The position numbers and the translations under genes are program-made. Positions 40,205 to 63,385 of a DNA stretch of 64,000 bases are shown here, piece by piece; the stretch's first letter is position 1, and each line of letters opens with the position of its first letter. The stretch spans positions 13,270-77,269 of the forward strand of contig NZ_AOIS01000010.1 of assembly GCF_000337495.1 (NCBI RefSeq), written 5' to 3'. The notes under the pieces were generated by a model. The model was given only the letters and a program-made list of their open reading frames with translations, was not told where the DNA came from and did not search any database. This DNA is from Haloterrigena salina JCM 13891. Lineage in GTDB: Archaea > Halobacteriota > Halobacteria > Halobacteriales > Natrialbaceae.

Positions 40205-40206
40205 TG

Positions 40207-42095: not shown

Positions 42096-42149
42096 ATATG
42101 AGAAAGTTGGATGTCAAGACTGCCGTAACATAGACTGATGAAGTGTTGC

Positions 42150-43799: not shown

Positions 43800-43803
43800 C
43801 ACC

Positions 43804-44013: not shown

Positions 44014-44255
44014 AGCATCCCACCTCTGATGTGTTTTACCGGCTCAGTATCGAATGTCTGCACTGCGTTACACTTCTCAATCTGCTGTTTCACGTTCAGG
44101 TGCTTCTCGGGGCGTACCGCTAGTTCCACGACTGGGTGTCCGTCTTCTGTACGGAACTCATGGTCTTCGATTCCGTCTATCTTGATTAGTAGATCTGTTA
44201 ATTCGTCCTGCTGTCGATCGTCGTAGTTAATAAGGATTCGACTAGATTCAGCCAT
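44010..44255 (-). CDS. Small hypothetical protein, second in tiny-gene operon
   Basis: 81 residues from ATG 44255, MAESSRILINYDDRQQDEL. Alternating strands and helices (ILINYDD...LTDLLIKIDGIEDHEF...PVVELAVRPEK) suggest a small alpha/beta ferredoxin-like fold. One Cys only. Starts 1 bp after the stop of the DUF2080 gene. Confidence 0.6.
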   Translation of the reverse strand: MAESSRILINYDDRQQDELTDLLIKIDGIEDHEFRTEDGHPVVELAVRPEKHLNVKQQIEKCNAVQTFDTEPVKHIRGGML

Positions 44256-44256
44256 T

Positions 44257-44505
44257 CTACCCACCGTTCTCCTGAGATTCTTGAAGAAGTTCTACGCGGA
44301 ACGTTTCTCCGCGGAATCGTTTTGGAACCAAGATGTGGGCGCTGTTGCCGCATTCCTTGGCTTCCCGTGTTTCATGCCACACCTCATTTCCGTCTACCAG
44401 TTCTGTCTGGAACTGTTTGCCGCGGAAGCGTTTCGGCACCCGGATGTGAGCGCTGTTCCCGCATCGGTCTGCGTCCCGGGTCTCCACCCACTGCTCCGTC
44501 GCCAT
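44257..44505 (-). CDS. Tandem DUF2080-like protein (AbrB-type repeats), operon head
   Basis: 82 residues made of two near-copies of one ~40-residue unit: WVETRDADRCGNSAHIRVPK and WHETREAKECGNSAHILVPK, each followed by RFRG and a short strand. GNSAHI-x-VPK is the hallmark of DUF2080 (transposon-encoded, AbrB/SpoVT-like DNA-binding fold: GNSAHIYLPKxW). Single-unit proteins dimerise, so this may be a fused dimer binding DNA as autoregulator or toxin antidote. ATG 44505 with TATA at 44527-44538 indicates a leaderless transcript. Confidence 0.72.
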   Translation of the reverse strand: MATEQWVETRDADRCGNSAHIRVPKRFRGKQFQTELVDGNEVWHETREAKECGNSAHILVPKRFRGETFRVELLQESQENGG

Positions 44506-44526
44506 GAGTACATACTATGTAATAAC

Positions 44527-44538
44527 ATTTAAATAAAT
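44527..44538 (-). promoter_or_regulatory. Promoter of the tiny-gene operon
   Basis: ATTTATTTAAAT on the minus strand, centred about 27 bp upstream of ATG 44505. Confidence 0.6.
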
Positions 44539-44612
44539 GGTCCAGCCACTAATACCTTCGAACTTTCGAAGAAACGTCTCCAAATTTCGGGACTGACTTC
44601 CGACCTCCTATT

Positions 44613-46421: not shown

Positions 46422-46427
46422 CGCGGA

Positions 46428-47654: not shown

Positions 47655-47747
47655 TACTCCGAAAGAATCACTGTAGAACAATAAGGTTTGTTCTAGCTAT
47701 GCTTTCTAACACGGGGAAGACGGCGACTTTTCACTAAGCCATCTTAG

Positions 47748-47761
47748 GAACGGTACCGTTC
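47748..47761. promoter_or_regulatory. Perfect 14-bp palindrome upstream of mcrB
   Basis: GAACGGTACCGTTC, about 95 bp before the mcrB ATG and 120 bp after the AlbA_2 gene stop. It could be an operator (C-box-like) for the mcrBC unit. Confidence 0.4.
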
Positions 47762-47881
47762 AGGCCAGCCCTACGGGGGATTACCACACTGTCGGACAGA
47801 ACCCAAGGGAGACAGCATGCCCCTCTGCCTTACAGCTATGGTGCTGGGAGCAGATCTGATCCAATAAGAGGGTGAAGAGAT

Positions 47882-48958
47882 TTAGGACCAGTTCTGTTCA
47901 ATGTATTGGACAGCCTCTGGCGTATCAAGCGGGACAGACGAACTCCCATTTCTCACGTATAGAGTCTCGTCACAGTAGACCGGCTCAGGAGCGCGGTCAA
48001 CGCGGACAACACAAACTTCCTCCTCATCAATTTCTTTAAACTGAATACGGGTGAATAAGGAGGCGAACGGGCTGCCGATCTGACTGGAGATCTCCTGATT
48101 GATTTGCCGTTCTAACTCGTCTTTTCCCTCTGGCATCAATTTTAAGTCTCGCTCTAACCCCGTGATTTCCTTGCTATCATCTTCAACACCAATTACTAAA
48201 AATCCGCCTTCCGTATTCGCAAAAGCACATACCTCTTGGACAGCCTCTTCTTTTAATTCAGCATTCGGTTGGTCCTGATAAACATCATATAAGAATGTCT
48301 CTTTGTACTCCAGTTTGATGTCTTCTTCTTGGCCGATCAACTCCTCAATATCGATTTGTTCCCCTGTTTTAGAATCACTCTCATCCCCCGACGCTGACTC
48401 CGCAGTTGCCTGTTGTGGCTCCGACTGCGTTTTGTATCGATCTAACTCCTGACGCCCCAACGGTTCTATTTGTAATGCGGTATATGGCGGTGACCCCATC
48501 ACCAACGATGCATCCACCCATTCCTTCTTTATCATATACCACATATTCAGGTCGACGACATCATCATTGAGATCAAGCTTATCCCGGAAGTCTTCACCAT
48601 CAAACCGCGCTCCGGGATTGTCTCGTTCCAGATCCTCCAATTCAGCTAAGATATAATATCGATCATCATCCTCCAAGAAGGTGCCACCAGTCGCCCGTTG
48701 CAACTCGTCGACACCCCGTGGAGTGAGACTAATCGAACCCCGTGAATTCAACGCAGGACTGTAATTAACCAGATACTCCTCATCCAATCGATTAAGCGCA
48801 TAATCCAGATCCGACTCCTCTACATCAAAAGCAACCGTATCAACCACTTCTTCCACAACCGAATCAGTCACATTCGACGTAAAGGGGCTCTCAGCCTGTA
48901 TATCGTACAAAGTGGCTAATATTTCCCTCTTGATATCTTCCGTATTAGTCTCGGGCAT
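47882..48958 (-). CDS. AlbA_2 (Schlafen-like) protein with N-terminal wHTH
   Basis: 358 residues. The N-terminal ~175 residues look like two winged-helix units (LDYALNRLDEEYLVNYSP, LTPRGVDELQRATGG). After a Ser/Glu linker, the AlbA_2/Schlafen core begins: IGQEEDIKLEYKETFLYD, VQEVCAFANTEGGFLVIGVED and DETLYVRNGSSSVPL near the end. Such proteins are called ATP-binding or RNA-cleaving and occur in defence islands as regulators or effectors. It is upstream of mcrBC on the same strand with a 227-bp gap. ATG at 48958. Confidence 0.82.
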   Translation of the reverse strand: MPETNTEDIKREILATLYDIQAESPFTSNVTDSVVEEVVDTVAFDVEESDLDYALNRLDEEYLVNYSPALNSRGSISLTPRGVDELQRATGGTFLEDDDRYYILAELEDLERDNPGARFDGEDFRDKLDLNDDVVDLNMWYMIKKEWVDASLVMGSPPYTALQIEPLGRQELDRYKTQSEPQQATAESASGDESDSKTGEQIDIEELIGQEEDIKLEYKETFLYDVYQDQPNAELKEEAVQEVCAFANTEGGFLVIGVEDDSKEITGLERDLKLMPEGKDELERQINQEISSQIGSPFASLFTRIQFKEIDEEEVCVVRVDRAPEPVYCDETLYVRNGSSSVPLDTPEAVQYIEQNWS

Positions 48959-49379
48959 TACCCTCTATTAGCTACCATCCGACAAAAAACACTCAGTCCT
49001 TCCCAAAACTAGCCCGTGAAATATCAGTTACGTAACTATGCTTGATCAGGCGTGAACAATCTGTCTGAAATGCGCCGAAAACTGGCCTATGACCTGCTGC
49101 ACAAGTGAAATCGTGCCGTTTGGGCCTGCAAGCCTGCAGCGCCCATACATTTGATACGCGATAATCGCCCGATAGCGCAACGCTAATCGGTCGAACGGGC
49201 ACAATTTTGCTTTCGTTCGATGGCTGACCAATCGAGTGACTATCACCGGGATTCGCGTACATCAAAACCAGTCCGTAGAGAGAAAATCAATCGCCGATTG
49301 CCTCCCAGTCATCGCTTCTGCCAGCGAAACTGCTTTGATCCAGTTTCGCAGTCAGCGCTCACTCACCTGGAATGGACGC
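48959..49379. other. Right end of the island with attR and an empty stretch
   Basis: The island ends at 49147 with CCTGCAGCGCCCATA (49133-49147). Sequence near it shares CTGTCTGAAAT (49058-49068) with the equivalent place before the third att copy (50272-50282). The 230 bp after the att core hold no credible gene; ATCGGTCGAACGGGC-type fragments there resemble the intergenic repeat found further right. Confidence 0.5.
49133..49147. repeat. attR core (second copy)
   Basis: Exact copy of the 15-bp tRNA-Arg 3' end core. Confidence 0.75.
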
Positions 49380-49659: not shown

Positions 49660-50103
49660 TTAGGAGGAGTCGAGCTGTTCGGTGAGTTCGACGATCAGAC
49701 CCTCTGGACCGCGGACATAGCAGAGTCGGTAGATGTCCTCGTAATCACGAACCTCGCCGACTGGGTCAAAGCCTTTGCCTCGTAGTCTATCAACGATCGT
49801 ATCGAGGCCATTGACCTCAATGGCGATGTGCCGGAAGCCCATTCGGTTCGCAGGAAAGTGGTGTGCGCCCTCATCGTCGATTGGCGCGTGGTACTTGACG
49901 AGTTCGAGCTTGCCACTGCCGTCCGGCGCTCGTACCATCACCACCTCCGCCCGGACGCCGTCGAGTCCGTTGATCTTATCGACCGTCTCGCCCTCGACCG
50001 ACGCCCCGCCCTCGCGCTCGAATCCGAGGTCGAGGAAGAACGCGGCCACGGCGTCGAGGTCATCGACGACAACACCCACATGATCGAAACGTAGCGTCTC
50101 CAT
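49660..50103 (-). CDS. VOC-family (glyoxalase/dioxygenase-fold) protein
   Basis: 147 residues from ATG 50103. Two beta-alpha-beta-beta-beta modules: FDHVGVVVDDLDAVAAFF at the start and GFRHIAIEVNGLDTIVDRL in the second half, with metal-ligand positions His (FDH), Glu (KLELV), His (FRH) and Glu (GLIVELTE) all present, so it probably binds a divalent metal. The reaction is unknown: glyoxalase I, epimerase and resistance proteins share this fold. It is the only clear gene of the 1.2-kb segment between the second and third att copies. Confidence 0.85.
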   Translation of the reverse strand: METLRFDHVGVVVDDLDAVAAFFLDLGFEREGGASVEGETVDKINGLDGVRAEVVMVRAPDGSGKLELVKYHAPIDDEGAHHFPANRMGFRHIAIEVNGLDTIVDRLRGKGFDPVGEVRDYEDIYRLCYVRGPEGLIVELTEQLDSS

Positions 50104-50288
50104 CTCATGCACTCTAGACGTTCGACTCTATTGAACCAACCTGCTACTGAAACGCTGAAGTTGCGAGGACGACCGGGTCGGGAGTAATCCGTTTCCGGCG
50201 GTTGATTGGAGGAAACCCCAACGATATCTATACGTCCTATATCTTGCACAGGTGGGTGAAAGTATCAATCCTCTGTCTGAAATAACGG

Positions 50289-50350
50289 TTTTGAGACGGT
50301 CAAATTCGGATGTCTTACGCCTGAAAGGTCGATTCGTTCGACAGTCGAAC
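50289..50350. repeat. Structured intergenic repeat, copy 1
   Basis: TTTTGAGACGGTCAAATTCG opening, middle with TTACGCCTGAAAGGTCGATT, and end hairpin GTTCGAC-A-GTCGAAC. Related copies at 59587-59646 and 61851-61902. Confidence 0.65.
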
Positions 50351-50355
50351 CGGAA

Positions 50356-50370
50356 CCTGCAGCGCCCATA
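50356..50370. repeat. Third copy of the tRNA-Arg att core
   Basis: CCTGCAGCGCCCATA again, 1.2 kb after the island end, which suggests a second tandem integration or an earlier, larger element. Confidence 0.7.
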
Positions 50371-50676
50371 GATTCTAAATCGCAATACAGCGTTGCGATT
50401 CGTTGTTCTCTCAAACCACTAATCGTTCGATAGTCGAACGACCACTTCGTCGTCTCCGAATTCAGATTCAGGAGCAGTTCAGAGGCCCGCGTCCTGAAGA
50501 CGGAAAAACGCGCGACGCAGCCCCCAATTTCTTTCGTGAATCACTGAGCGAACTAGCTGATAGGAAGATTTGCATATCTACCGAGCGCTGACTCCAAACG
50601 GTGGGAGTACGAGGGCGGATCACCCACGTACAGATGAAGACCACATTTAACCGTGCCACCCAACTACCGGTTGCTA

Positions 50677-53600
50677 ATGAGTCAGCAGGGCGAACGCAGT
50701 GACCAACCGGGGACGCCGGATCTTGAAAGCGGCCTCGAGGCATTGCGTCAGAGTCCTGAGTTTCGCGGCCCCGGCGAATCCCTCGATGGCCACGACCACG
50801 CCACCGACCATTTCGCACTCATATATACGAACCGAGACGAGCAGTTCGCGGCCGCCATCCCGTTCATCCGCCAAGGGCTCGAGCAGGGCGAGCGATGCCT
50901 GTACGTCGCGGATGACAACTCGAAAGCAGAAGTACTGGAAGCGATGCGGGCCCGCGGCGTCGACGTGGACGGTGCCCTCGACTCGGGTGCGCTCTCCATC
51001 CACACGGAGGCTGACACGTATCGCAGGACCAGCACGTTCGATCAGGATGCGATACTGGAGTTCTGGGAGGACTCCCTAACGGAGGCAACAGACGAGGACG
51101 GCTACACGGGAATCAGGGCAGCCACCGAGATGACGTGGGCGCTGGATGAGGATACGAGCCCCGATCAACTGGTCGAGTACGAAGCGGCCCTCAACTCTCT
51201 GTTCCAGAACGAGGACTACACCGTCATGTGTCAGTACAATCGCGAGCGGTTCCCACCCGAGGTGCTCGAAGACGTCATCGAGACCCACCCGCACCTCATC
51301 CACGACAACGTAGTCTCTCACAACGTCTACTACACCCCACCCGAGGAGTTCTTCGGCCCCGAGCAGCCAGCCGACAGGGTTGATCGGATGATGGGGACGT
51401 TGCGCGAGCAGACCGAGGCGAAGACGGAACTCCAGCAATCGAAAGAACACTTCGAGCAAGTCTTTGAGAGCAGCCACGACGCTGTCCTCATCGTTGACCC
51501 CGACGCGGACGAAATCCTCGACGCAAATCCGGCCGCATCTAAGACGCTTGGATACGGACGAGACGAGTTGCTGTCGCGCGGCCCCTCCGACTTGTATCAC
51601 GGCGAACTCGACAGATTCAGTACGTTCGTCGACGAGGTGTTCGAAGATGGTTTCGGTTGGACAGACGAACTTACCTGCCGCAGCAGGGATCGGGGCCGGA
51701 TTCCGACTGAGATCTCGGCGTCCCAAATCGAGGTCGATGACCGCCCGGTCATGCTCGCGACGATCCGCGACATCACCGAGCGCAAGGAACACGAGCAAGC
51801 CCAACAGAGATTGTACGAGATCGTGGCCGATTCCGACAGGCCATTCGACGACAAACTCCAAGCGGTACTCGAACTCGGCTGCGAGCGGTTCGACCTCGAA
51901 TACGGCGGGATCGCCCGCGTCGATCCGACGGCCGATCTGTTCGAGGTGGAGACCATACGTGGGGACCACGACCACCTCGTCCCGGGCGAGCAGTATCCGC
52001 TCTCCGAAACCTACTGCCGATCGGTGGCGGACGACGGAGAAACCACGGCCATCACTGACCCTGTAAGCGAGGGGTTCGAGGGGAAATTGTGCTACGAGCG
52101 CTTCGGCGTTCAGGCATACCTCGGAACCCAACTCGAAGTCGATGGTGACGTCGATCGGACGTTCTTCTTCGTCTCGAACGAACCACGGAAGGAGGAGTTC
52201 TCGGGGGCCGAACACACGTTCCTCCACCTGATGGGGCAGTGGGTGGAGTATGAACTCGAACGCAGGCAGGCCGCGGAGGCGCTGCGCGAACAAACCCACA
52301 CCCTCGAAACGATCAACCAGGTGGGCAACTCATTGGCCGCCGAACTCGACCTCGAGAATCTGGTGCAGGAGGTTACAGACGCCGGGACGGAAATAACCGG
52401 CGCGGAGTTTGGTGCTTTCTTCTATAACGTCATCGATGACCAGGGCGAATCCTACACGCTCTATACCCTCTCAGGGGTTCCCGATGAGGAATTCGAAGAC
52501 TTCCCGATGCCGCGCAATACGGAGGTCTTCGGCCCGACCTTTCACGGCGAGGGGGTCGTCCGTTCGGACGACATCACCAAAGATCCGCGCTACGGTAACA
52601 ACGCGCCCTACGATGGGATGCCCGAAGGCCATCTGCCCGTATGCAGTTACCTGGCGGTTCCTGTAATCTCGAACTCCGGTGAAGTACACGGCGGCCTTTT
52701 CTTCGGCCATTCGGAGCGGGGCATCTTCACCGAGAAGGATGAGAACATCATCACCGGGATTGCTGCCCAAGCGGCCGTAGCCATTGATAACGCTCGTCTG
52801 TATGAAACGGCGCGCGAAAGCGAGGAGCGATTCCGAGCGTTGGTCACCGCGAGTTCGGAAGCCGTGTTTCGCATGAGCTCCGATTGGAACGAAATGCGAC
52901 ACCTCGAAGCCCAGGGCTTCCTCTCCGACACAAACGAACCGACCAGCGACTGGCTCGACAAATACATTCACCCGGACGACCAGGGGCGCGTCATGGAGGC
53001 CGTCAACGAAGCCGTCCGGGCCAAGAGCACGTTCGAACTCGAACACCGGGTGGAGCAGGTCGATGGCAGCCTGGGCTGGTCATTCACGCGGGCGGTACCA
53101 ATGCTGAATGAGGACGGTGACATCGACGAATGGATTGGTATGGCGAGCGACATCACCGAGCGCAAGCATCGCCAGCAGGAACTCGAACAAACTAACGCAC
53201 AACTGGAACGCTCGAACGCCGAATTGAAGCGGTTCGCCTACGCCGCCTCCCACGACCTCCAGGAGCCGTTACGGATGGTGTCGAGTTATGTCCAACTGCT
53301 CGAACAACGATACGCCGACGATCTCGATGCCGACGCACGGGAGTACATCGAGTTCGCCGTCGATGGTGCCGACCGGATGCGCGAGATGATCGATGCGTTG
53401 CTGCAGTATTCACGGCTCAACACGAGTGACAACAAGTTCGAACCCGTGGACTGTAATGACGTGCTCGCCCAGGCGACGGATAATCTTCAAATCGCCATCG
53501 AAGAGAGCAGCGCCGAGATTACCTCGGATTCACTGCCCACGGTCATGGGCGACGAGCAGCAACTGGTGCAGCTGTTCCAAAATCTGCTCGATAACGCTAT

Positions 53601-53901
53601 TACGTACGCTGGTGACGAGCCACCGCGTATTCACGTCACCGCTGAGAAGCGAAACGATGAATGGGTGCTGTCGGTCCAGGATAACGGAATCGGGATCGAT
53701 TCGGAAAAGGCTGAGGAGATCTTTGAGGTATTCAACCGCCTCCACACCACTGACGAGTACGCCGGCACTGGTATCGGCCTCGCACTCTGCCAACGGATCG
53801 TTGATATTCACAATGGCCGCATTTGGGTTGAGTCAGAACTCGGTGAGGGGTCGACGTTCTCATTCACAGTTCCCGAGAAGAAAGCGAGCAAATCCGCATA
53901 G
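50677..53901 (+). CDS. Multi-sensor histidine kinase (MEDS-PAS-GAF-GAF-PAS-HisKA-HATPase)
   Basis: 1074 residues from ATG 50677. Domains by eye: MEDS/DcmR sensory (~45-215, HFALIYTNRDEQFAAAIPFI, GERCLYVADDN), PAS (~255-375, ending MLATIRDITERKEHE), GAF (~395-540), second GAF (~555-715), PAS/PAC (~725-850, ending GMASDITERKHRQ), HisKA with phospho-acceptor His in RFAYAASHDLQEPLRMV, and HATPase with NLLDNAITYA, DNGIGI and GTGIGLALCQR. No transmembrane segment, so a soluble sensor. No response regulator gene next to it. TATA at 50643-50651. Confidence 0.93.
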   Translation: MSQQGERSDQPGTPDLESGLEALRQSPEFRGPGESLDGHDHATDHFALIYTNRDEQFAAAIPFIRQGLEQGERCLYVADDNSKAEVLEAMRARGVDVDGALDSGALSIHTEADTYRRTSTFDQDAILEFWEDSLTEATDEDGYTGIRAATEMTWALDEDTSPDQLVEYEAALNSLFQNEDYTVMCQYNRERFPPEVLEDVIETHPHLIHDNVVSHNVYYTPPEEFFGPEQPADRVDRMMGTLREQTEAKTELQQSKEHFEQVFESSHDAVLIVDPDADEILDANPAASKTLGYGRDELLSRGPSDLYHGELDRFSTFVDEVFEDGFGWTDELTCRSRDRGRIPTEISASQIEVDDRPVMLATIRDITERKEHEQAQQRLYEIVADSDRPFDDKLQAVLELGCERFDLEYGGIARVDPTADLFEVETIRGDHDHLVPGEQYPLSETYCRSVADDGETTAITDPVSEGFEGKLCYERFGVQAYLGTQLEVDGDVDRTFFFVSNEPRKEEFSGAEHTFLHLMGQWVEYELERRQAAEALREQTHTLETINQVGNSLAAELDLENLVQEVTDAGTEITGAEFGAFFYNVIDDQGESYTLYTLSGVPDEEFEDFPMPRNTEVFGPTFHGEGVVRSDDITKDPRYGNNAPYDGMPEGHLPVCSYLAVPVISNSGEVHGGLFFGHSERGIFTEKDENIITGIAAQAAVAIDNARLYETARESEERFRALVTASSEAVFRMSSDWNEMRHLEAQGFLSDTNEPTSDWLDKYIHPDDQGRVMEAVNEAVRAKSTFELEHRVEQVDGSLGWSFTRAVPMLNEDGDIDEWIGMASDITERKHRQQELEQTNAQLERSNAELKRFAYAASHDLQEPLRMVSSYVQLLEQRYADDLDADAREYIEFAVDGADRMREMIDALLQYSRLNTSDNKFEPVDCNDVLAQATDNLQIAIEESSAEITSDSLPTVMGDEQQLVQLFQNLLDNAITYAGDEPPRIHVTAEKRNDEWVLSVQDNGIGIDSEKAEEIFEVFNRLHTTDEYAGTGIGLALCQRIVDIHNGRIWVESELGEGSTFSFTVPEKKASKSA

Positions 53902-53955
53902 GGAGTGGTTCGTAGATGAGTGACCAGAAATAATAGTGGAATCAATCGCCAGTCG

Positions 53956-54789
53956 TTAGGTCTCTTCACGGATGAATGCAAGTATCTCTTCGATGAAGCG
54001 GTCCGGTCCGGTGAGCATCGCTTCGTGTGCGTGGCCATCGAAGGTAACGATCCGGCTGTTCGGGAGCGCGTCGTTGACTGGGGCCGTCGCATCTTTCAAG
54101 AATTGAGGGCTCTCGCTGCCGGACAACAGTAACGTCGGTGTCGTCATATCGGCGAACCGGGCTGAATCGAACTCGTACTCGCCGACCGCAGATAAGCTGC
54201 GGGGCCAGACGTGTGCCGCATCCACGAGGTCTCGCCAGTCCGGGGCTGAGCGTTGCGCGTCGATTTCTTCCGGCGTGGATTGGGCGATTTCTCGGAGGAA
54301 CAGGACAAGCACCTGCTCGTTTTCACCGTCGTCGAGCAGCCGTTTCATTTCCGCGAGCACCTCGTCGGAGTAGAGGTCTTGATCGTCGAACGCAATGGGT
54401 GGCTCGTACAGGATGAGTTTGTGTAGGGTATCGGTTCGTAGGGCCGCCTCGAGCGATAAGAGTGCTCCCGATGAGTGCCCGAGGAGGGTTACAGGCTCGT
54501 CGATCGTCTCGACGACCGCAGCCACGTCCTCGAACTCCCGTTCCAAGTTGTACTCGTCGGCATCGCCACTCTCACCGACACCACGGCAATCGATCGCGTA
54601 GACCGTGAAATGGTCCGCGAAGGTGGTGCGAACATCGGATAACTCCCAGAACCTGTGGTCACAGACGCCTCCGTGGACGAGCACGAGCGGTGGCCCGCTT
54701 CCCGTCCGTTCGAAGGCGATCTCGGTCCCGTCTGCAGACGGGACTGTTTCCATGTCTCCACTCGTGTCTGGTGGTGTTGCTTCTGCCAT
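53956..54789 (-). CDS. Alpha/beta hydrolase
   Basis: 277 residues. HGGVCDHRFW oxyanion region, IDCRGVGESGDADEYN, nucleophile elbow LLGHSSGALLSLEAAL (Ser), a late DGHAHEAMLTG with the His; the acidic residue is probably in LLSGSESPQF. The N-terminal 18 residues are unstructured. Similar to haloperoxidase/lactonase-type hydrolases; substrate unknown. Convergent with the histidine kinase gene, 54 bp between stops. Confidence 0.85.
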   Translation of the reverse strand: MAEATPPDTSGDMETVPSADGTEIAFERTGSGPPLVLVHGGVCDHRFWELSDVRTTFADHFTVYAIDCRGVGESGDADEYNLEREFEDVAAVVETIDEPVTLLGHSSGALLSLEAALRTDTLHKLILYEPPIAFDDQDLYSDEVLAEMKRLLDDGENEQVLVLFLREIAQSTPEEIDAQRSAPDWRDLVDAAHVWPRSLSAVGEYEFDSARFADMTTPTLLLSGSESPQFLKDATAPVNDALPNSRIVTFDGHAHEAMLTGPDRFIEEILAFIREET

Positions 54790-55062
54790 GGGTGGTTCAC
54801 CCCCGTCCTCTATGCGACGAAATCACATAGAGTCATCTCGTGAAAAATATCCACGGCCTGAACGGGAAGCACGACCCGCCTCGAGTCGAGCAGCTGGAGA
54901 ACCCTATGCGCCCTAAATACAGGAATTAGCCATAGAACGGTAGTCACGTTATCTACCTCGCATATATGCATCAAATCACGTCTCTGGGTGTAGGAATTTC
55001 AGAGCGGTCGCGGTGATGTGACGGAGATGTTCGTCAAGTGTTTTCGTCACATCGAATGCGTA

Positions 55063-55974
55063 TCACCGACGTAGATCAGGCTTCGCGTTGAGTGGGGTGG
55101 AGTCGGCTCTCACTGACGCGTAGACGCGCTCGGCCCACTCACACGCGATCGGGGCGTCCGTATCGACGAACACCTGCATCAGGCCCGTCTGATCGTCGTA
55201 GCCGCCGATTCCGACGCGGTCGTCGAAGAGCGCGAGACCGTAGGGGAGTTCGTCGCGTGTCCGGAGGGTTAAGTGCCCGCGATCGATCGCTTCCCGGGCA
55301 CGTTCGGGGTACGTCTCGAAGAATTTCTCGACGATGTGTGGCAGGTAGATGATCTCGGTATCGGTTTCCTCGAACACCTGCTGGTGGAACTCGCCGAGGA
55401 CCAGCGGCGCCATGTGAGTCGTGTTAAATCCCCGGAACGAGTCGGATTCACTGACGAGTTCGATGAACCGCTCGACCGGTTTGTAGGGATCGTCCGGTTG
55501 GGCGACGGTGATCGTCGCGTCCACGAACGGTTCGAGGATGAAGTCTCGATGATCCTCACAGACCGCATCCAGCAGCGGCGTCATTCTGTGTGCGGTCCGC
55601 ACGTTCGCCTCGAACCGGAGGACCTCCTCGGCGATGACCGCGCCGCGCCAGGTCAACTGGAATCGACCATCGACCTTCTCGACGAAGTCCTGTTCGTCGA
55701 GCCACTGCGTGTAGCGGTGGCTCGTCGCCCGCGAAACCTCGAGGCGCGCTTCGATCTCTCGGCGATCGAGCGGTTCTTCCAGCAGGACTTCGAGGACCGG
55801 GCCGTGTCTGACGATGTCGCCGAGCAGGTCCGTATCGACGCGGTCGCCAGCGTCGTCCAGACGCTGGCCCAGATAGCGACGGTTCCGTTCGTTTTCCAGG
55901 ATCGCCTCGAGGATCGGCGACCCCGGTGGCGGACGGCCATCCTCCTCCGGTCGTTCGTCTCGATCAGGACCCAT
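55063..55974 (-). CDS. FilR1/DUF1724-type winged-helix regulator (paralogue A)
   Basis: 303 residues from ATG 55974 (an in-frame GTG lies 3 codons upstream). N-terminal ArsR-like winged helix: VLEVLLEEPLDRREIEARLE, SRATSHRYTQWLDEQDFVEK. The C-terminal ~180 residues match the FilR1/DUF1724 ligand domain of haloarchaeal and methanogen regulators (FRGFNTTHMAPLVLGEF, RDELPYGLALFDDRVGIGGYDD). It is over half identical by eye to the regulator at 60890-61786. It faces the FAD oxidase gene on the other strand, so control of that operon is plausible. Confidence 0.83.
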   Translation of the reverse strand: MGPDRDERPEEDGRPPPGSPILEAILENERNRRYLGQRLDDAGDRVDTDLLGDIVRHGPVLEVLLEEPLDRREIEARLEVSRATSHRYTQWLDEQDFVEKVDGRFQLTWRGAVIAEEVLRFEANVRTAHRMTPLLDAVCEDHRDFILEPFVDATITVAQPDDPYKPVERFIELVSESDSFRGFNTTHMAPLVLGEFHQQVFEETDTEIIYLPHIVEKFFETYPERAREAIDRGHLTLRTRDELPYGLALFDDRVGIGGYDDQTGLMQVFVDTDAPIACEWAERVYASVRADSTPLNAKPDLRR

Positions 55975-56123
55975 GTTATCCACTCACTAGACAAAGGCTA
56001 TCACTGGTAGTAACTCTATCCCGTGCACGCTCCGGAACTCGTCTCACCGTCTGAAACGGTGCGCTCGAGGCCGAATCCTGTTCGATAGGTGAGGCCAACA
56101 CCCGCGCTGTCGTCCACTTCTGT

Positions 56124-57557
56124 ATGGCACAACAAACTATTCCCACTGAACAGATCGAACGGTTCGAGGCGGAATTCCACGGCGATCTGATTCGCGTCGA
56201 TGATGCTGACTACGACGACGCGCGCTCGGTGTGGAACGGGATGATCGACAAGCGTCCGTCCCTGATCGCTCGCTGTCGAGGCGTCGGTGACGTCATCAGC
56301 GCGGTGACCTTCGCCCGCGACCACGACCTGTTGGTGGCGGTCCGTGGCGGCGGGCACAACGTCGCCGGGACCGCCGTTTGCGACGACGGGCTCGTTATCG
56401 ATCTCTCCGAGATGAGGGGCGTGTGGGTAGACCCCGATACGCGGACGGCACGGGTCCAGGCCGGTGCCACGTGGGCGGACGTGGACCACGAAACCCAGGC
56501 CTTCGGGCTGGCGACGCCCGGTGGGGCCGTCTCGGAGACGGGCGTCGCGGGGCTGACGCTCGGTGGCGGCATCGGTCATCTCCGCTGCAAGCACGGCTTG
56601 ACCTGTGACAACCTCGTATCCGCGAATCTGGTCACGGCGGACGGCGAGTACCTGACCGCCAGCGAGGACGAGAACCCGGACCTCTTCTGGGGACTCCGCG
56701 GCGGCGGCGGCAACTTCGGGGTGGTCACCGGCTTCGAGTTCGACCTCCACCCTGTCGGCCCAGACGTGGCGATCTGTCTCGTGTTCTATTCGGGTGACCG
56801 GACGGTCGAGGTACTGAAAGCCTACCGCGACTACGTCGCGGATGCGCCCCCGGAAGTCAGCTTGCTCACCTTGTCTGGTGTGATGCCCGACGAGGACCTC
56901 TTCCCGGCGGACGCGGTGTACGAATCCAAAATAGCAATCGCGGGCTGTTACGCGGGCTCTGTCGCGGACGGCGAACGCGCGCTGGCACCCTTGCGAGAGA
57001 TCGACGAGCCGATCGCCGACTTCAGCGGGCCGATGCCGTACGTCGAGCTTCAGCAACTCTTCGATGAGGACTACCCCGACGGGATGCGCTACTACTGGAA
57101 GTCGCTGTACCTCGACGGGCTGCCGGAGTCCGCCGTCGATCGAATCGCCTACTGGTCCGACGTGGCACCGTCACCGCTCTCGACGGTCGACGTCTGGCAG
57201 TTAGGAGGCGCGATCACCCAAGTTGGCGTCGAGGACAGCGCGTTCGCGGGGCGACACGCTCCCTTCCTGCTGGGCGTCGAAGCGAACTGGGAGCGTCCGG
57301 CGGACGACGACGCGAACGTCGAGTGGGTGCGCGACTGTCTCGAGGACATGCGCCAGTTCTCGGACGGGTCGGTGTACCTGAACTTCCCGGGGTTCCTCGA
57401 AGAGGGCGACGAGATGATGCGGACCACGTTCGGGCCGACGTACGAGCGGCTGGTCGCGCTAAAGGACGAGTACGATCCGACGAACCTGTTCAGCCTCAAC
57501 CAGAACGTCGCGCCGTCCGAAAGCGCTCGAGCCGACGGTGGAGGGTGCCATGAGTGA
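56124..57557 (+). CDS. Bicovalent FAD-linked oxidoreductase (BBE family)
   Basis: 477 residues. PCMH-type FAD domain: RGGGHNVAG with His78, and GLTCDNLVSAN with Cys161, the two positions that link FAD covalently (8-alpha-histidyl, 6-S-cysteinyl). C-terminal BBE motif YDPTNLFSLNQNV. It oxidises alcohols, sugars or alkaloid-like compounds using O2; the substrate is unknown. No signal peptide, so it appears cytoplasmic. It overlaps the small membrane protein gene by 8 bp, and the TauE gene follows: one operon. Confidence 0.9.
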   Translation: MAQQTIPTEQIERFEAEFHGDLIRVDDADYDDARSVWNGMIDKRPSLIARCRGVGDVISAVTFARDHDLLVAVRGGGHNVAGTAVCDDGLVIDLSEMRGVWVDPDTRTARVQAGATWADVDHETQAFGLATPGGAVSETGVAGLTLGGGIGHLRCKHGLTCDNLVSANLVTADGEYLTASEDENPDLFWGLRGGGGNFGVVTGFEFDLHPVGPDVAICLVFYSGDRTVEVLKAYRDYVADAPPEVSLLTLSGVMPDEDLFPADAVYESKIAIAGCYAGSVADGERALAPLREIDEPIADFSGPMPYVELQQLFDEDYPDGMRYYWKSLYLDGLPESAVDRIAYWSDVAPSPLSTVDVWQLGGAITQVGVEDSAFAGRHAPFLLGVEANWERPADDDANVEWVRDCLEDMRQFSDGSVYLNFPGFLEEGDEMMRTTFGPTYERLVALKDEYDPTNLFSLNQNVAPSESARADGGGCHE

Positions 57558-57795
57558 CCGGGACGCCGAATTCCCGGCCTTCGCGCGGCGGTCAGTGACA
57601 GACCGGATCGTACTGGTGAGCATACTGGTGGGAGTGCTGAGCGTTCTGCTCGTCGCTCCAGCAGTCGGTGAGTCCGGCGAGGCCGCTGCCACGGTCGGGT
57701 ACATTCTGGCAGAAGCGCTCGTGCTCTACGTCGGATACGGGGTACTGATGCGCGTTGCTAGTCCGACCGCCCGCGAAATACTCGAGAGTGCCTGA
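57550..57795 (+). CDS. Small two-helix membrane protein
   Basis: 81 residues from ATG 57550 with two hydrophobic segments (IVLVSILVGVLSVLLVAPAV and VGYILAEALVLYVGYGVLM). It overlaps the FAD oxidase by 8 bp and ends 2 bp before the TauE start, so it is probably co-translated. It could help the exporter or the oxidase at the membrane. Unknown family (a similar small membrane protein sits by TauE genes in some haloarchaea). Confidence 0.7.
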   Translation: MSDRDAEFPAFARRSVTDRIVLVSILVGVLSVLLVAPAVGESGEAAATVGYILAEALVLYVGYGVLMRVASPTAREILESA

Positions 57796-57797
57796 CC

Positions 57798-58787
57798 GTG
57801 GTGCTCCTCGGCCTCGATCTCGTGCTGATCGGTTTCTTCGTCGGGTTCGGCCTGCTCATCGGCGTTCTCTTCGGGTTCTTCGGGATGGGCGGGTCGTTCC
57901 TCGTGACGCCGGCGCTGTTGGTGGTCGGGTATCCGGCACCGGTGGCCGTCGGGAGCGGGCTCGCGTTCGTCTTCGGCACCAGCGTCATCGGTGCGCTCAG
58001 ACACCGCGATCACGGCCAGGTCAGCTACACGCTGGCGACGGTGATGAGTCTCGGACTGCTGTTCGGTATCGAGATCGGCACTCGGATCGTGTTCCTACTC
58101 GCGGGTCTCGGCAGCGCTGACGTCGTCATCAGCGCGGTGTACGTCGGACTTCTCGGTGCGGTCGGGCTCTTCGTCCTTCGAGACGCTCGCACTGCCGATT
58201 CGGATGTGGAAACGGGCCGCGTCGCTACCGGTGTTCTGGCCATCGACCTCCCACCGATGATGTCGCTGTCGGGCGGTGGGACCGTTTCGGTGTGGGTTAT
58301 CTTCGTCGTCGGGTCGGGCATCGGCGTTCTCTCCGGCTGTCTCGGCGTCGGTGGGGGGTTCCTCCTGCTCCCCGTCATGGTCTACGGATTCGGCGTTCCC
58401 ACTGCGGTCGCTGCTGGGACCAGCATCCTTCAGATTCTGGTTTCGGGCGCGTTCGGGACGTTCGTCTACGCCCAGTCGAACGCGGTCGAGGTCCCCGTCG
58501 TCGCCGCGTTGCTCGTCGGGAGCGCGTTCGGTGCCCGCATCGGTGTAAGTGCCACGCGTCTCGTAAACGAAGCGGATATGAAAGGATACTTCGCCGGGAT
58601 GCTGCTCGCCGGGGGCGTCGCCACCGCGTGTAAGCTGGTGAGCGACGTATACGGGGTCGAGCCGCTCGAGACGGGGAGTGTCGTCCTCATCTTCGGCACT
58701 GCAGTGCTGGTCAGTGGTGCGATCGTCCGGACGTCGATCGCTGCGCTCAGGACGAATCAGCAGTCCGGGTCGCCACGGACCCACTAG
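57798..58787 (+). CDS. TauE/SafE family sulfite/organosulfonate exporter
   Basis: 329 residues from GTG 57798. About eight to nine membrane segments in two halves, each with the family's glycine-rich motif: LFGFFGMGGSFLVTPALL and SGCLGVGGGFLLLPVMV. PVAVGSGLAFVFGTSVIGAL and TAVAAGTSILQILVSGAFG are the paired following blocks. An insertion of about 35 residues (~125-160, acidic) divides the halves. TauE/SafE proteins move small sulfur or carboxylate anions. Third gene of the oxidase operon; start GTG is 2 bp after the previous stop. Confidence 0.88.
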   Translation: MVLLGLDLVLIGFFVGFGLLIGVLFGFFGMGGSFLVTPALLVVGYPAPVAVGSGLAFVFGTSVIGALRHRDHGQVSYTLATVMSLGLLFGIEIGTRIVFLLAGLGSADVVISAVYVGLLGAVGLFVLRDARTADSDVETGRVATGVLAIDLPPMMSLSGGGTVSVWVIFVVGSGIGVLSGCLGVGGGFLLLPVMVYGFGVPTAVAAGTSILQILVSGAFGTFVYAQSNAVEVPVVAALLVGSAFGARIGVSATRLVNEADMKGYFAGMLLAGGVATACKLVSDVYGVEPLETGSVVLIFGTAVLVSGAIVRTSIAALRTNQQSGSPRTH

Positions 58788-59091
58788 CTACTCGCGTGGC
58801 TTCGACTGGGACGATCAGGGAGTCCGAGCGGTGGGCCGGCCGCTGGCCCGCTGTGATTTCTGGGGGCATCGCTGGGTGCGTTCAGCCGAACTGTCACAAC
58901 TACGCCCTTCACGGTAACAGATAACACGGCTCGCGTCGTACTCGGCGAATAGCGTCTGCTCCGACGACCCTGGACCGAAGAGGAATCCGTCGTGCTGGGC
59001 GCAACGACCAGAGGGGGTACGATGGCAACACCAGTAGCGATCGAGACGGGAGCGGTACAGCGCGATTACAGCGTCGAATACGGGGGACGAG
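58788..59091. other. Intergenic, no confident gene
   Basis: Between the TauE gene and the ABM gene. A 25-codon frame (59021-59098) overlapping the ABM start is visible but has no support besides position. No repeat or strong TATA seen. Confidence 0.45.
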
Positions 59092-59481
59092 ATGGCTGAC
59101 TTCATCGTGTACATCGACCGATCTACCGTCCGCGACGGGAAGTTGGACGTACTCGAACGGGCGATGACGGAGCTAGTGGACTTCGTCGAGGCCAACGAGC
59201 CGCAGATACTGGCCTACGACGTCTACTTCGATACCGACGAGGATCGAATGACTGTGATGCACATGCACGCTGATCAGGCGTCGTTGGAATTCCACATGGA
59301 GGTCGCGGGCCCGAAGTTCCCGCCGATCGGCGAGTTCATCGACCTCGAGTCCATCGACGTGTACGGCCACCTGAGCGAGGATCTCGTCCGGCGGCTGAGG
59401 GACAAAGCGACGGAGTTGGGAAGCGGACGTGTCTCAGTTCACGATCATCACCGAGGCATCGGCCGCGTTCCGGACAGTTGA
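59092..59481 (+). CDS. ABM-fold monooxygenase-like protein
   Basis: 129 residues, MADFIVYIDRSTVRDGKLD at the start. Dimeric alpha+beta barrel pattern as in antibiotic biosynthesis monooxygenases: FIVYID, LVDFVEANEPQILAYDVYFD, MTVMHMHADQASLEFHMEV. Such proteins oxidise quinols or degrade reactive aldehydes without a cofactor. C-terminal ~20 residues His/Arg-rich. It may act with the FAD oxidase and the methyltransferase nearby in one small-molecule pathway, as inference from neighbours. Confidence 0.75.
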   Translation: MADFIVYIDRSTVRDGKLDVLERAMTELVDFVEANEPQILAYDVYFDTDEDRMTVMHMHADQASLEFHMEVAGPKFPPIGEFIDLESIDVYGHLSEDLVRRLRDKATELGSGRVSVHDHHRGIGRVPDS

Positions 59482-59586
59482 GTCGAAGGGGAGTAGACGG
59501 TCGGTGAGAGACGGCCGAACGGGCGGGGGAGTGATCGGTGCGACCCTCACAGGCCGTTCAGCGCGAACCCCCTATTGTCACCGCTA

Positions 59587-59646
59587 TTTTGAGACAGTCG
59601 AATTCGGACACATCACGCCCCAACGGTCGATTCGTCCGACGGGACG
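59587..59646. repeat. Structured intergenic repeat, copy 2
   Basis: TTTTGAGACAGTCGAATTCG opening, CACGCCCCAACGGTCGATT middle, and end stem CGTCC-GACG-GGACG. Lies between two converging genes. Confidence 0.65.
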
Positions 59647-59655
59647 GAGTCGTCA

Positions 59656-60738
59656 TCACGGCCTGGCCTCGAGCACGAGGTTGAACGGCGTCTCAGCCGC
59701 TCGACGGACCCGCGTGAACCCACCCTCGGTGATTACCTCGCGGAGACGCGCTTCGCCGGCCTGGGCTCCCAGTACGGGGTCGCCGCCCTGGGCGAGCGAG
59801 TTCGGGACGCAGGCCAGCGTCGAGGCGCAGTAGAACGCCCTACCAATCGGGTTCAGGTTGTCCTCGACTCGATCGTTGGCGAACGGCTCGACCAACATCC
59901 ACGCTCCGTCGTCGGCGAGCGTCTCCCGAACGTGTGACGCCACGCCGACCGGATCGCCCATGTCGTGATACGCGTCGAACATCATCACGAGGTCGTAGTC
60001 GGTCCCATCGAACTCCGTCGCGGTCGCCACCTCGAAGTCGATACGGTCCGCGACGCCGGCGTCTTCGGCTCGCTCGCGGGCCACTTCGATCGAGCGGTCG
60101 TGGTAATCGACGGCGACGAACGCCGAATCGGGGTAGGCCTCGGCCATGATAATCGTCGACGCACCGTGACCGCAGCCCACGTCGGCGACGCGCGCTCCGT
60201 CCCTGAGCCTCGCGCTCATTCCATCGAGCGCGGGAATCCACTCGTCGACGAGATTCGTCTCGTAGCCGGGGCGGTAGAAGCGTTCGGTGCCGTGACACAC
60301 GTCCGCGTCGTGCTCGTGCCAGCCAACGCCCGCGCCGGTTCGGAAGTCGGCTTCGAGCTCCGAGAGGCTCCGCTGGTACCCCATCAGCCCCTGGAACCCG
60401 CCGGCGAGGAACGCGGGGCTGTCCTCGTCGGCCAGCAGCGCCGCCTGTTCGGGTGTGAGGCCGTAGCGCCCCGTCTCGGAATCGTAGGTGACGTAGCCGC
60501 CGGCCGCTCCCGCGGCGAGCCACTCGGCGACGTACGGCTCCACGGTGTCGGTCCGTTCGGCCAGTTCGGCGGGCGTGAACGGTCCGCCGTCGGCCAACGC
60601 CTCGTAGAGGCCGAGCCTGTCGCCGATGACGATCAGCGGCGCGTAGTAGGCAGCCCCTAGTTCGTTGACGGCCATTCCGAGGAGTTCGTTCAACTGTGCT
60701 TCGTCGACCGGTTCGTCGGCGGTAGTCGGTAGTGCCAT
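59656..60738 (-). CDS. Class I SAM-dependent methyltransferase with N-terminal wHTH-like domain
   Basis: 360 residues from ATG 60738. An N-terminal winged-helix-like dimerisation part (LIVIGDRLGLYEALADGG, FTPAELAERTDTVEPYVAEW) as in small-molecule O-methyltransferases. Then SAM motif VADVGCGHGASTIIMAEAYP, VAVDYHDRSIEVARERAED and MMFDAYHDMGDPVGVA. It resembles bacterial plant-type/quinone-like methyltransferases that act on small molecules. Divergent from the second FilR1-type regulator (152 bp between starts), which probably controls it. Confidence 0.87.
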   Translation of the reverse strand: MALPTTADEPVDEAQLNELLGMAVNELGAAYYAPLIVIGDRLGLYEALADGGPFTPAELAERTDTVEPYVAEWLAAGAAGGYVTYDSETGRYGLTPEQAALLADEDSPAFLAGGFQGLMGYQRSLSELEADFRTGAGVGWHEHDADVCHGTERFYRPGYETNLVDEWIPALDGMSARLRDGARVADVGCGHGASTIIMAEAYPDSAFVAVDYHDRSIEVARERAEDAGVADRIDFEVATATEFDGTDYDLVMMFDAYHDMGDPVGVASHVRETLADDGAWMLVEPFANDRVEDNLNPIGRAFYCASTLACVPNSLAQGGDPVLGAQAGEARLREVITEGGFTRVRRAAETPFNLVLEARP

Positions 60739-60889
60739 ACCCGGACGATGGACGGCGAACCTGTTGGCCTCATTCACGGAGGTTCCGTTCCACGGAGTGA
60801 ATCGCGTTTCAGCACGTGAGAGGGGTTCTCGCGTCGTGTGCGGGATAGAACTACTACTCGTGCCATCCTATCTCTAGCTAGTGACTAAC

Positions 60890-61786
60890 ATGGACGTTCC
60901 CGAAGACGACCGACTCACGTTCACTCCACCGGCATCGCCGATCGTGGAGGCGGTCATGCAGAACGCGCGGAACCAGCAATACCTCGGCAAGCGCCTCGAC
61001 GCGGCGGGCACCCGCGCCGACCCGGACCATCTCGGCGACATCGTCCGGCACGGGCCGGTTCTCGAAGCGCTCCGAGCGGAGCCCCTGGACCGCCGCGAGA
61101 TCGAGGATCGCCTCGAGGTTTCGCGGGCGACGAGCCACCGCCTGACGAGGTGGCTCGACGAACAGGGGTTCGTCGAGAAGACGGACGGTCGGTTCCGGTT
61201 GACCGGCCGCGGCGAGGCGGTCACCGACGAAGTCCTCCGGTTCGAGGCGAACGTGAGCACCGTCCACCGGATGGGACCGCTGTTGGACGTAATCTGTCCG
61301 CACCACGCGGAGTTCGCCATCGAACCGATGATCGATTCGACCGTGACGATCGCTGAACCGACTGTTCCGGACCGGCCCGCCGAGCGGTTTATCGAACTCG
61401 TCGGCGAGTCGGAGACGTTCCGCGGGTTCAACACGACGCATCTGGCACCGCTGATGATCGGCGAGTTCTACCAGCGAGTGTTCGACGGCACCGAAACCGA
61501 ACTCATTTACCCGCCGGACATCACCGAGCGGCTGCGTGAAACGTATCCGACCCGCGTAACCGAGGCAATCGATCGCGGACGGTTGACCCTCCGGACTCGC
61601 GAGAAACTTCCGTACGGACTCGCGCTCTTCGACGAGCGCGTCGGCCTCGGCGGCTACGACGACGACACGGGGCTGATGCAGGTGCTCGTCGACACGGACT
61701 CGCCCATGGCCCGCGAGTGGGCCGAACGGGTCTACGCGTCGATTGCGGCGGACGCTATGCGACTCGATAGTCAAACAGAACAGTGA
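60890..61786 (+). CDS. FilR1/DUF1724-type winged-helix regulator (paralogue B)
   Basis: 298 residues from ATG 60890 (in-frame GTG three codons upstream, the same spacing as in paralogue A). wHTH: ALRAEPLDRREIEDRLEVSR, TSHRLTRWLDEQGFVEKTDG. Ligand domain with FRGFNTTHLAPLMIGEFYQR and EKLPYGLALFDERVGLGGYD. It is divergent from the methyltransferase gene. High similarity to paralogue A suggests recent duplication and related ligands. Confidence 0.84.
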   Translation: MDVPEDDRLTFTPPASPIVEAVMQNARNQQYLGKRLDAAGTRADPDHLGDIVRHGPVLEALRAEPLDRREIEDRLEVSRATSHRLTRWLDEQGFVEKTDGRFRLTGRGEAVTDEVLRFEANVSTVHRMGPLLDVICPHHAEFAIEPMIDSTVTIAEPTVPDRPAERFIELVGESETFRGFNTTHLAPLMIGEFYQRVFDGTETELIYPPDITERLRETYPTRVTEAIDRGRLTLRTREKLPYGLALFDERVGLGGYDDDTGLMQVLVDTDSPMAREWAERVYASIAADAMRLDSQTEQ

Positions 61787-62098
61787 CATCCTGCCCGCAA
61801 GAGCGGACGGATCCCGGTACAATCTATCACGCATCTTCCACCCAACCCTCTAAATTCGGGCGTTTTACGCCCGAAATGTCGATTCGTTCGTCCGTCGAAC
61901 GAGAGCCTGTCGCGCCCCTTGTCAGAGCGAGCAAGACCGAACGCTCGAGCACGCTCGAGAGCGAGCGGCGACCGTCTTGCTCTCCGCCAATACCGGTGAA
62001 GAGAGTGACACGAACCCGCGGTTAACGACGGCTTGACGAGCCCCACCGTGCAGACGCACGCCCCGAGCATTTACCCGCTAATCCGGTACCCGGCGGTG
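61787..62098. other. Intergenic with structured repeat; MFS promoter region
   Basis: Holds the third structured repeat (61851-61902); its first hairpin TTCGGGCGT-TTT-ACGCCCGAA could also end the regulator transcript. GCTCGAGCACGCTCGAGAGCGAG (61946-61966 area) is a further short repetitive string. No gene seen; an in-frame extension of the MFS gene back to 62033 (TTG) is less likely than ATG 62099. Confidence 0.5.
61851..61902. repeat. Structured intergenic repeat, copy 3
   Basis: First hairpin TTCGGGCGT-TTT-ACGCCCGAA (9 bp), linker TGTCGAT, second hairpin TCGTTCG-TCCGT-CGAACGA (7 bp). The best-formed copy. Confidence 0.7.
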
Positions 62099-63385
62099 AT
62101 GGTCCGAACCGACGCTAACAGAAACCGCTGGTTGATCGCGCTCTCGGCGATCGCGATCCACCTCTCCATCGGATCGATTTACGCGTACAGCGTCTATCAG
62201 AATCCGCTTCGCGACGAGCTAGGGTGGGCAATATCAGACGTCTCGCTGGCCTTTACCGTCGCGATCGTCTTCCTCGCGCTCTCGGCGGCGTTCCTCGGGG
62301 GGTTCGTCGAAAACCGCGGCCCGCGGACCTCGGGATTGATCGCCGCCGGAACGTTCGGCCTCGGAATCATCGGCGCCGGCGTGAGCGTTCAAATAGAGAG
62401 CTACGCCGCGTTCGTCCTGACGTTCGGCGTGATCAGCGGGATCGGTATCGGACTCGGATACATCACGCCGATTTCGACGCTCGTCCAGTGGTTCCCCGAC
62501 CGCCGGGGGATGGCCACCGGGATGGCCGTGATGGGCTTCGGCGCCGGCGCGCTCGTGACCGGCCCGGTCGCGAACTACGTCATGGAGACTGCCAGTATCC
62601 CCGTCACCTTCTACGGCCTCGGCGTGGCCTACTTCCTCCTGATGGCCGCCGGCGCGAGCTATCTGAAGAAGCCGCCGGTCGACTGGGTTCCGGACGGAAT
62701 CGACGAAAGTGAACTCGACACTGCCAACAACGAGAAGGGCGTCTCCGTCAACACCGACCTCGCGGAACTCACCGGCAGCGAGGCCCTGCGGACGCCGCGG
62801 TTCTACCTCGTCTGGCTGGTCATGTTCATCAACATCTCGGCCGGGATCATGCTGCTGTCGGTCGCGTCGCCGATGACGCAGGTCATCGCGCAGGTCGACG
62901 CGGCGACCGCGGCCTCGGTCGTCGGCCTCATCGGCATCTTCAACGGCGGCGGCCGGATCTTCTGGGCGACCGCCTCCGACTACATCGGCCGGACGAGCAC
63001 GTACGGCGTGTTCTTCGGCCTCCAGATCGCCGCGTTCCTGTTGATGCCCCAGATCACCCACATCTGGCTGTTCGCGGGACTGCTGTTCCTCATCATCAGC
63101 GCGTACGGCGGCGGGTTCGCCTGTCTGCCGGCGTATCTGGGCGACCTGTTCGGGACGAAGGAACTCAGTGCTATCCACGGCTACACCCTGACGGCGTGGG
63201 GAGCCGCGGGCGTCGCGGGTCCGATGCTCATCTCCGAGATCGTCGAACGGACCGGTAGCTACGTCATGGCCTTCTACATCATCACCGGCGCGCTGGTCGT
63301 CGGGCTGACCGCCGTGGGCGTCCTGTACTACCGGATCGAGGACGTCCGGGAGTCATCCCCCAGAGCCGACCCGCAGGCGACCTGA
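62099..63385 (+). CDS. OxlT-like MFS transporter
   Basis: 428 residues from ATG 62099, twelve membrane segments. SIGSIYAYSVYQNPLRDELGW at the first helix is typical of the oxalate:formate antiporter (OxlT)/monocarboxylate group, as is ISTLVQWFPDRRGMATGMAV and the second-half IFNGGGRIFWATASDYIGR. A central acidic loop (~200-235) separates the halves. Probable substrates are small carboxylates. It is not possible to say which. Confidence 0.88.
   Translation: MVRTDANRNRWLIALSAIAIHLSIGSIYAYSVYQNPLRDELGWAISDVSLAFTVAIVFLALSAAFLGGFVENRGPRTSGLIAAGTFGLGIIGAGVSVQIESYAAFVLTFGVISGIGIGLGYITPISTLVQWFPDRRGMATGMAVMGFGAGALVTGPVANYVMETASIPVTFYGLGVAYFLLMAAGASYLKKPPVDWVPDGIDESELDTANNEKGVSVNTDLAELTGSEALRTPRFYLVWLVMFINISAGIMLLSVASPMTQVIAQVDAATAASVVGLIGIFNGGGRIFWATASDYIGRTSTYGVFFGLQIAAFLLMPQITHIWLFAGLLFLIISAYGGGFACLPAYLGDLFGTKELSAIHGYTLTAWGAAGVAGPMLISEIVERTGSYVMAFYIITGALVVGLTAVGVLYYRIEDVRESSPRADPQAT

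Follow-up and report, generated by a model that had tools for sequence, protein, structure and literature searches.

In Dehalococcoides, tandem genomic islands lie behind ssrA and are bounded by 20-bp direct repeats of the ssrA 3′ end; as described, 15 such islands lack and 16 carry an integration module, and the authors suggest that the former may be cis-mobilizable (PMC3146451). Streptococcal CIMEs are described as elements without integration genes that keep both attL and attR and are stacked by site-specific integration (PMC5704250). Successive integration with loss of integrase genes has been proposed for streptococcal ICE and IME remnants (PMC5704250), and is discussed for the ssrA islands (PMC3146451). 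Integrons, including archaeal ones, are likewise rows of cargo units separated by inverted-repeat recombination sites (PMC9668308), and the attachment site of the SNJ2 integrase IntSNJ2 is given as 14 nt in a review of pleolipoviruses (PMC8371274).

The locus analysed here lies in a stretch of 64,000 nucleotides from Haloterrigena salina JCM 13891 (contig NZ_AOIS01000010.1), hereafter the window, to which all coordinates of sites c1 to c3 and Modules 1 to 4 refer. In description it resembles tycheposons, which are tRNA-targeted cargo elements with tyrosine recombinases. Like the ssrA islands, the locus is a tandem row with repeats of an RNA-gene 3′ end and many units without an integration module. 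The Dehalococcoides islands as described are bacterial, target ssrA and use a serine recombinase whose 3′ end overlaps attL (PMC3146451), whereas the present row is haloarchaeal, targets tRNA-Arg and goes with a tyrosine integrase whose start adjoins the left arm of the site. With streptococcal CIMEs and ICE/IME accretion it shares stacked integrase-less units with att sites kept; the streptococcal ICEs and IMEs are described as conjugative and bacterial (PMC5704250). The resemblance to SNJ2 consists of an integrase homologous over 99% of its length and a short att site (14 nt according to PMC8371274, 15 bp here); in the SNJ2 record two accessory genes lie upstream of the integrase start, whereas here the integrase start faces the att arm. 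Unlike in integrons, a tRNA gene, and not an integrase platform with attI, heads the array, the modules are of about 1–10 kb with several genes in both orientations, and the site contains a tRNA end. This haloarchaeal array was not found described in the openly licensed papers searched, and tandem accretion with integrase loss is best read as a haloarchaeal variant, itself new, of a known kind of array.

A row of gene modules behind tRNA-Arg(TCG)

The initial annotation had described three intergenic copies of a repeat, here c1 (50289–50350), c2 (59587–59646) and c3 (61851–61902), with ATTCGG, ACGCC and GTCGATTCG in common. All of this was confirmed, and the copies lie in one orientation. The unit as delimited there is too short, however: the similarity of c1 and c3 extends to GCGCCC, the 3′ end of a tRNA. 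An intact tRNA-Arg(TCG) was identified with ARAGORN 10 kb upstream of a further site, A, and a 15-bp core, CCTGCAGCGCCCATA, is exact at this tRNA, at site A and at c1, degenerate at c3 and lost at c2. The exact core of site A, absent from the initial annotation, closes a 10-kb insertion with a McrBC-type system. The tRNA and the repeated cores give the order tRNA, module, core, module, c1, module, c2, module, c3, host, with the following features (bits are profile scores):

39029–39103 (+), tRNA-Arg, anticodon TCG, the integration target
39091–39105, core at the tRNA, 15 bp, comprising the tRNA 3′ end and the next two bases
39106–49132 (+), Module 1, about 10 kb, without integrase: two small ORFs; HFX_2341/CARF regulator, 41184–42095 (+); DNA methylase, 42150–43370 (−); McrBC component, 44613–46421 (−); AAA_5 ATPase, 46428–47681 (−); SLFN_AlbA_2 (Schlafen/AlbA_2) protein, 47882–48958 (−)
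49133–49303 (+), site A: exact core (49133–49147) and right arm, without canonical left arm; 161 bits
49304–50286 (+), Module 2: glyoxalase-family gene, 49660–50112 (−)
50287–50485 (+), site c1: left arm from 50287, exact core at 50356–50370, right arm to about 50485; 134 bits
50486–59584 (+), Module 3: MEDS/PAS/GAF kinase, alpha/beta hydrolase, FilR1-type regulator, BBE oxidase, TauE, ABM-like gene
59585–59650 (+), site c2: decayed left arm, core lost; 35 bits
59651–61840 (+), Module 4: methyltransferase, 59656–60777 (−); FilR1-type regulator, 60881–61786 (+)
61841–61921 (+), site c3, outer end of the row: left arm and degenerate core (61906–61920), without right arm
61983–63385 (+), host flank: MFS gene, 62033–63385, found downstream of the tRNA in 6/6 genus genomes searched

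Module 1 has no canonical left arm at its ends, and behind the tRNA a right arm is barely recognisable; the tRNA site scores 23 bits, mostly from the tRNA itself. Module 3 probably represents two or more fused modules, and one congener (genomes are numbered G and loci L) has an extra module between its kinase and regulator (G004). The FilR1/HVO_A0261-type regulators of the neighbouring Modules 3 and 4 (55063–55983 and 60881–61786) lie in opposite orientation and are about 68% identical, and other genomes, too, have FilR1-type genes in their modules.

All three copies are genuine and score far beyond chance. A profile made from 66 copies found elsewhere, some of them orthologues of the window copies in congeners, recovered c1 (E 2.5e-24, 81 bits), c3 (E 2.1e-18, 62 bits) and c2 (E 2.6e-13, 46 bits), against a top score of 14 bits in 100 dinucleotide-shuffled windows. 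They had also been called dispersed. The pattern ATTCGG N4-10 ACGCC N4-10 GTCGATTCG, however, has just three exact matches in the 4.84-Mb source genome, all at this locus, and no exact match in 60 relatives; the complete site as a DNA query gave two matches in the source genome, both within the locus. Since the scan proposed in the initial annotation revealed no further copies there, the dispersed-repeat reading fails in that genome. The copies present in other genomes speak instead for att sites of elements that target a tRNA gene.

Several relatives have copies that continue into the tRNA-Arg(TCG) 3′ end, CTGCAGCGCCCA, and the row of G001 begins with the intact tRNA. A second conserved stretch of about 150–180 bp follows the core and forms the right arm. 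Sites accordingly take three forms, namely tRNA end with right arm, left arm with core and right arm, and left arm with core, and this is how integrated elements lined up head to tail are built. As in tandem tRNA-targeted arrays, the units are bordered by direct repeats that copy the target RNA gene's 3′ end; the units run head to tail, the counted sites in 14 arrays with tRNA-Arg sharing its orientation; and, as in accretion or CIME-type arrays, integrase-less units retain an att site at either end. In Halorubrum salipaludis (L139), the one case compared in this way, the core beside the integrase is CCCGTCGCGCCC and tRNA-Arg(CCG) of the locus ends in CCCGTCGCGCCCG, so that the core follows the 3′ end of tRNA-Arg(CCG), not TCG. 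Other Halorubrum loci have the same core as L139, without a tRNA in the fetched stretch.

The inverted repeat of the left arm

The hairpins of the three copies had been thought to differ by compensatory changes. Instead, c1 and c3 have the identical stem GTTCG/CGAAC in the same alignment columns, only the length of pairing differing, and c2 has a 2-nt gap at these columns. Left arms were compared in a set of 69 copies, 44 of them from loci collected without an integrase as bait (up to L124, with the window) and the other 25 from integrase-baited loci; excluded were sites that scored below 22 bits or lacked most of the left arm, as well as intact tRNAs, sequence duplicates, and seven loci that repeated others. 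Standard pairs are formed in 88.7% of cells by the 6-bp inverted repeat GTTCGA-NNN-TCGAAC, and in 85.8% after shuffling. Changes on both sides of a pair occur in 11 cells against a shuffled mean of 3.5, with 0 of 500 shuffles as high, a control weakened because the arm sequences are related; nearly all lie within the two inner pairs, and the number of pairs showing such change, 3, is not unusual (95 of 500 shuffles as high). Two further left-arm stems, pairing columns 5–10 with 36–41 and columns 12–17 with 24–29, were dropped, their Watson-Crick counts being within 4 cells of expectation. Judged by the alignment, the hairpin can be described as a conserved inverted repeat with mild, weak covariation, for which RNA would not be required as an explanation; it is perhaps an integrase site. 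In the 2,354 bp of left arms the heptamer CGTTCGA/TCGAACG was counted 27 times; the right arms, 5,112 bp in all, gave 51, and the 866,376 bp of all arrays 668. Because the sites are related, these counts serve as a description and not as a test.

Folded as RNA and compared with shuffles, the copies gave z values of 0.17 (c1), 0.49 (c2) and −3.57 (c3), only c3 folding better. An extra hairpin reported at 50423 does exist (50419–50441), but belongs to the right arm of c1 (window 50288–50485) and on its own folds with z −0.97. At the Rfam gathering score no family matched the copies, the window matching only archaeal SRP RNA and tRNA.

Distribution of the site and its integrases

The complete site matched 32 of 125 genomes of the family. 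In an order-wide sample of 392 genomes, 106 had a match, and these belong to 43 of 95 genera; some of the order-wide matches cover only the end of the right arm. Eight plasmid records match; the plasmid NZ_CP082248 carries an array with five matching places, and in NZ_CP054588 the left arm adjoins a 96% identical integrase, the core breaking off after CCTGCAG. Neither the exact left-arm pattern in viral contigs (0 matches) nor the complete site against phage records (E 0.01) yielded a match.

Integrases were met beside the arms in relatives. Among 40 proteins selected from the output of a home-made ORF caller that favours acidic ORFs, none of the 39 inside modules, nor L066:2997-4079 just outside the last site, was an integrase. 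Ten more proteins, partly picked beside sites, included three integrases (PF00589; L064:16844-17854, L071:6928-8043 and L078:6020-7168). That of L064 is 45.0% identical to the SNJ2 integrase over 99% of its length and 46.5% identical to that of HHPV4. Both the full-length homology to IntSNJ2 and the short, 15-bp att site at a tRNA 3′ end in relatives are marks of the SNJ2-type family. Among the best 18 family-search matches listed (down to 64% identity), nine lie within 200 bp of a complete-site match and nine do not, one of the latter (L132) having a weak profile site of 27 bits. With the integrase as bait, 20 of 26 loci have a site of at least 18 bits no more than 110 nt from it. For matches beginning at the integrase start, 22 of 26 starts lie 36–40 nt from the arm by script (35 nt by coordinates at L064), on the opposite strand, and four lie farther away.

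Among the 44 left arms collected without bait, six adjoin an integrase alignable over its full length (one with five stops), five adjoin fragments, and 33, including c1–c3, show no trace of one within 1.4 kb. The window contains no integrase detectable by tblastn at E 1e-5, and the source genome has no cognate integrase of this clade as judged by identity, its best full-length match being 40% identical and shorter pieces reaching 51%.

Modules and cargo in related arrays

From the merged site map, 37 modules were counted in 14 genomes with tRNA-Arg and at least one further site. This count omits G002, with only a degenerate further core, and eleven genomes without tRNA-Arg in the fetched stretch (G007, G113, G130, G066, G063, G092, G064, G137, G105, G132 and G144). 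Three modules have an intact cognate integrase, adjoining the tRNA in each case (G119, G003 and G005), and each of these arrays has a second, more distant integrase. Six have broken integrases (G070, G100, and two each in G108 and G074), and 28 have none, among them the tRNA-proximal modules of G000, G001, G004, G129, G114, G148 and G073. Inner sites of integrase-less modules are often complete, for example with 228 bits in G004 and 223 in G001. By Pfam and PADLOC, the cargo includes Thoeris TIR proteins, McrBC, alkylmercury lyase, multicopper oxidase, subtilase, regulators and methyltransferases.

The tRNA-proximal, integrase-less module L069:7681-13134 (G129) encodes two ThsB/TIR-like proteins and a 560-residue protein without Pfam or PADLOC match. 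The densest row seen, on a scaffold of the uncultured archaeon A07HR60 (L137), packs six left-arm sites into the roughly 12.5 kb preceding tRNA-Arg(TCG), together with one integrase. On the 881-kb plasmid of Natrinema sp. SYSU A 869 (G113), a row (L060 2799-14923 with L059 12606) is found without an intact tRNA, its first site having only the last part of the tRNA. Arms also occur beside tRNA-Thr or tRNA-Gly, away from tRNA-Arg, in G003 and G007. In G007 (L022 7172-14853), homologues of Modules 3 and 4 have left arms beside tRNA-Thr(GGT), which a 62-residue integrase remnant adjoins; a homologue of Module 3 lies at L025 6560-12224 in G003.

The locus across the genus

All 6/6 genus genomes have the MFS gene and the tRNA, the latter together with the flank upstream of it, which is partial in G005. 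Where both are on the same contig, they are about 1.7 kb apart in G002, 12.4 kb in G001, 20.4 kb in G004, 23 kb in the window, 56.6 kb in G003 and 57.8 kb in G005. The tRNA locus of G002 is a nearly empty site: its 4.5 kb have no match to window 39105–61982 and hold a degenerate core and one gene, similar to PGA_cap-identified genes of G001 and G003. Homologues of Modules 3 and 4 (83–92%) are present on another contig of G002 (C2), with only a weak site of 19 bits. The distal modules of the window are 92–96% identical to those of G001, G003 or G004, and the tRNA-proximal module of G001 shows only 76% identity to the window. By arm score, the proximal site is better in 14 of 19 within-array pairs and worse in 5, the pairs not being independent, which amounts to a weak age gradient along the row.

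Origin of the array

The earlier proposals that the repeat is under selection and belongs to mobile DNA are supported by these data; the kinds of element first suggested are not. That c1, c2 and c3 are left arms of att sites of tRNA-targeted elements, and not a dispersed RNA element, is very likely. A structured RNA element or transcription terminator, as first suggested, would agree with the intergenic position of the copies, with an inverted repeat preserved in most of them, with mild covariation in two inner pairs and with the folding of c3, but it must be considered highly improbable: Rfam is silent, c1 and c2 fold like shuffles, the copies cluster at one tRNA locus, the unit runs on into the tRNA end, and the window copies sit between convergent, divergent and tandem genes alike. 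The operator of a regulator, such as the FilR1-type proteins encoded nearby, would account for the inverted repeat, and two FilR1-type genes do lie in the row; yet the site includes a tRNA end, c2 lies between two convergent genes, and this explanation was rejected, as very unlikely, because the site adjoins many other genes in other genera. Being short, repeated and intergenic, the copies also recall MITE-like or REP-like repeats, or the small mobile repeat first envisaged, to which their confinement to a single locus in the source genome, their single orientation and a border set by the tRNA core leave next to no probability.

Successive site-specific integration with integrase loss is best supported, and tandem accretion of integrative elements at the 3′ end of tRNA-Arg(TCG), with loss of their integrases, probably accounts for the whole locus. 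The order of integration events that we infer begins with a circular element (left arm – core – right arm) that would recombine with the tRNA end through an SNJ2-type tyrosine integrase, which presumably recombines this core and for which the inverted repeats would be binding sites. This would restore the tRNA at the near end and leave, at the far end, another core with the left arm in front of it. Later elements would insert at the tRNA or at a core already present, building up a head-to-tail pile, in which integrase genes may then be lost, cargo kept and outer att sites decay. Several observations fit this account less well: no recombination, circle or free attP was seen, viral contigs and phages having been searched; Module 1 lacks a canonical left arm, c2 its core, and c3 an intact one; arms occur at tRNA-Thr and tRNA-Gly (L022, L025), and the G113 row lacks an intact tRNA; the age gradient is weak, and the additional module of G004 lies inside the row, not at the tRNA. 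Module 1, the arms away from tRNA-Arg, the G113 row and the inner module of G004 are not accounted for by simple stacking at tRNA-Arg, and rearrangement or use of an inner core is possible. A more tentative alternative, doubtful on present sequence evidence, keeps the same att sites and supposes that, of the modules without integrase, many are genuine non-autonomous cassettes on which the integrases of resident or incoming elements act in trans, in an integron- or satellite-like manner but anchored on a tRNA gene. The proportion of left arms (33/44) and modules (28/37), tRNA-proximal ones included, without an integrase, the often complete inner sites of such modules and their varied cargo would all agree with it. 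Against it, six of the 37 modules have broken integrases, so simple loss does happen; no excised module was seen; and with no cognate integrase in the source genome, there is no helper there now.

Implications for haloarchaeal genomes

In haloarchaeal genomes, a profile of the 80-bp site delimits mobile gene packages, including packages without an integrase, which island finders based on integrases would probably miss. Helper-dependent gene cassettes in archaea thereby become directly testable, with a named integrase clade to test. There is some chance, though a limited one, that haloarchaea possess a tRNA-anchored cassette system in which integrase-less modules, equipped with a conserved two-armed att site, would be moved in trans by visiting SNJ2-type integrases. 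If so, such a system would be integron-like in function and independent in make, and the tRNA-Arg row would be a growing, partly time-ordered store of cargo for defence, detoxification and regulation.
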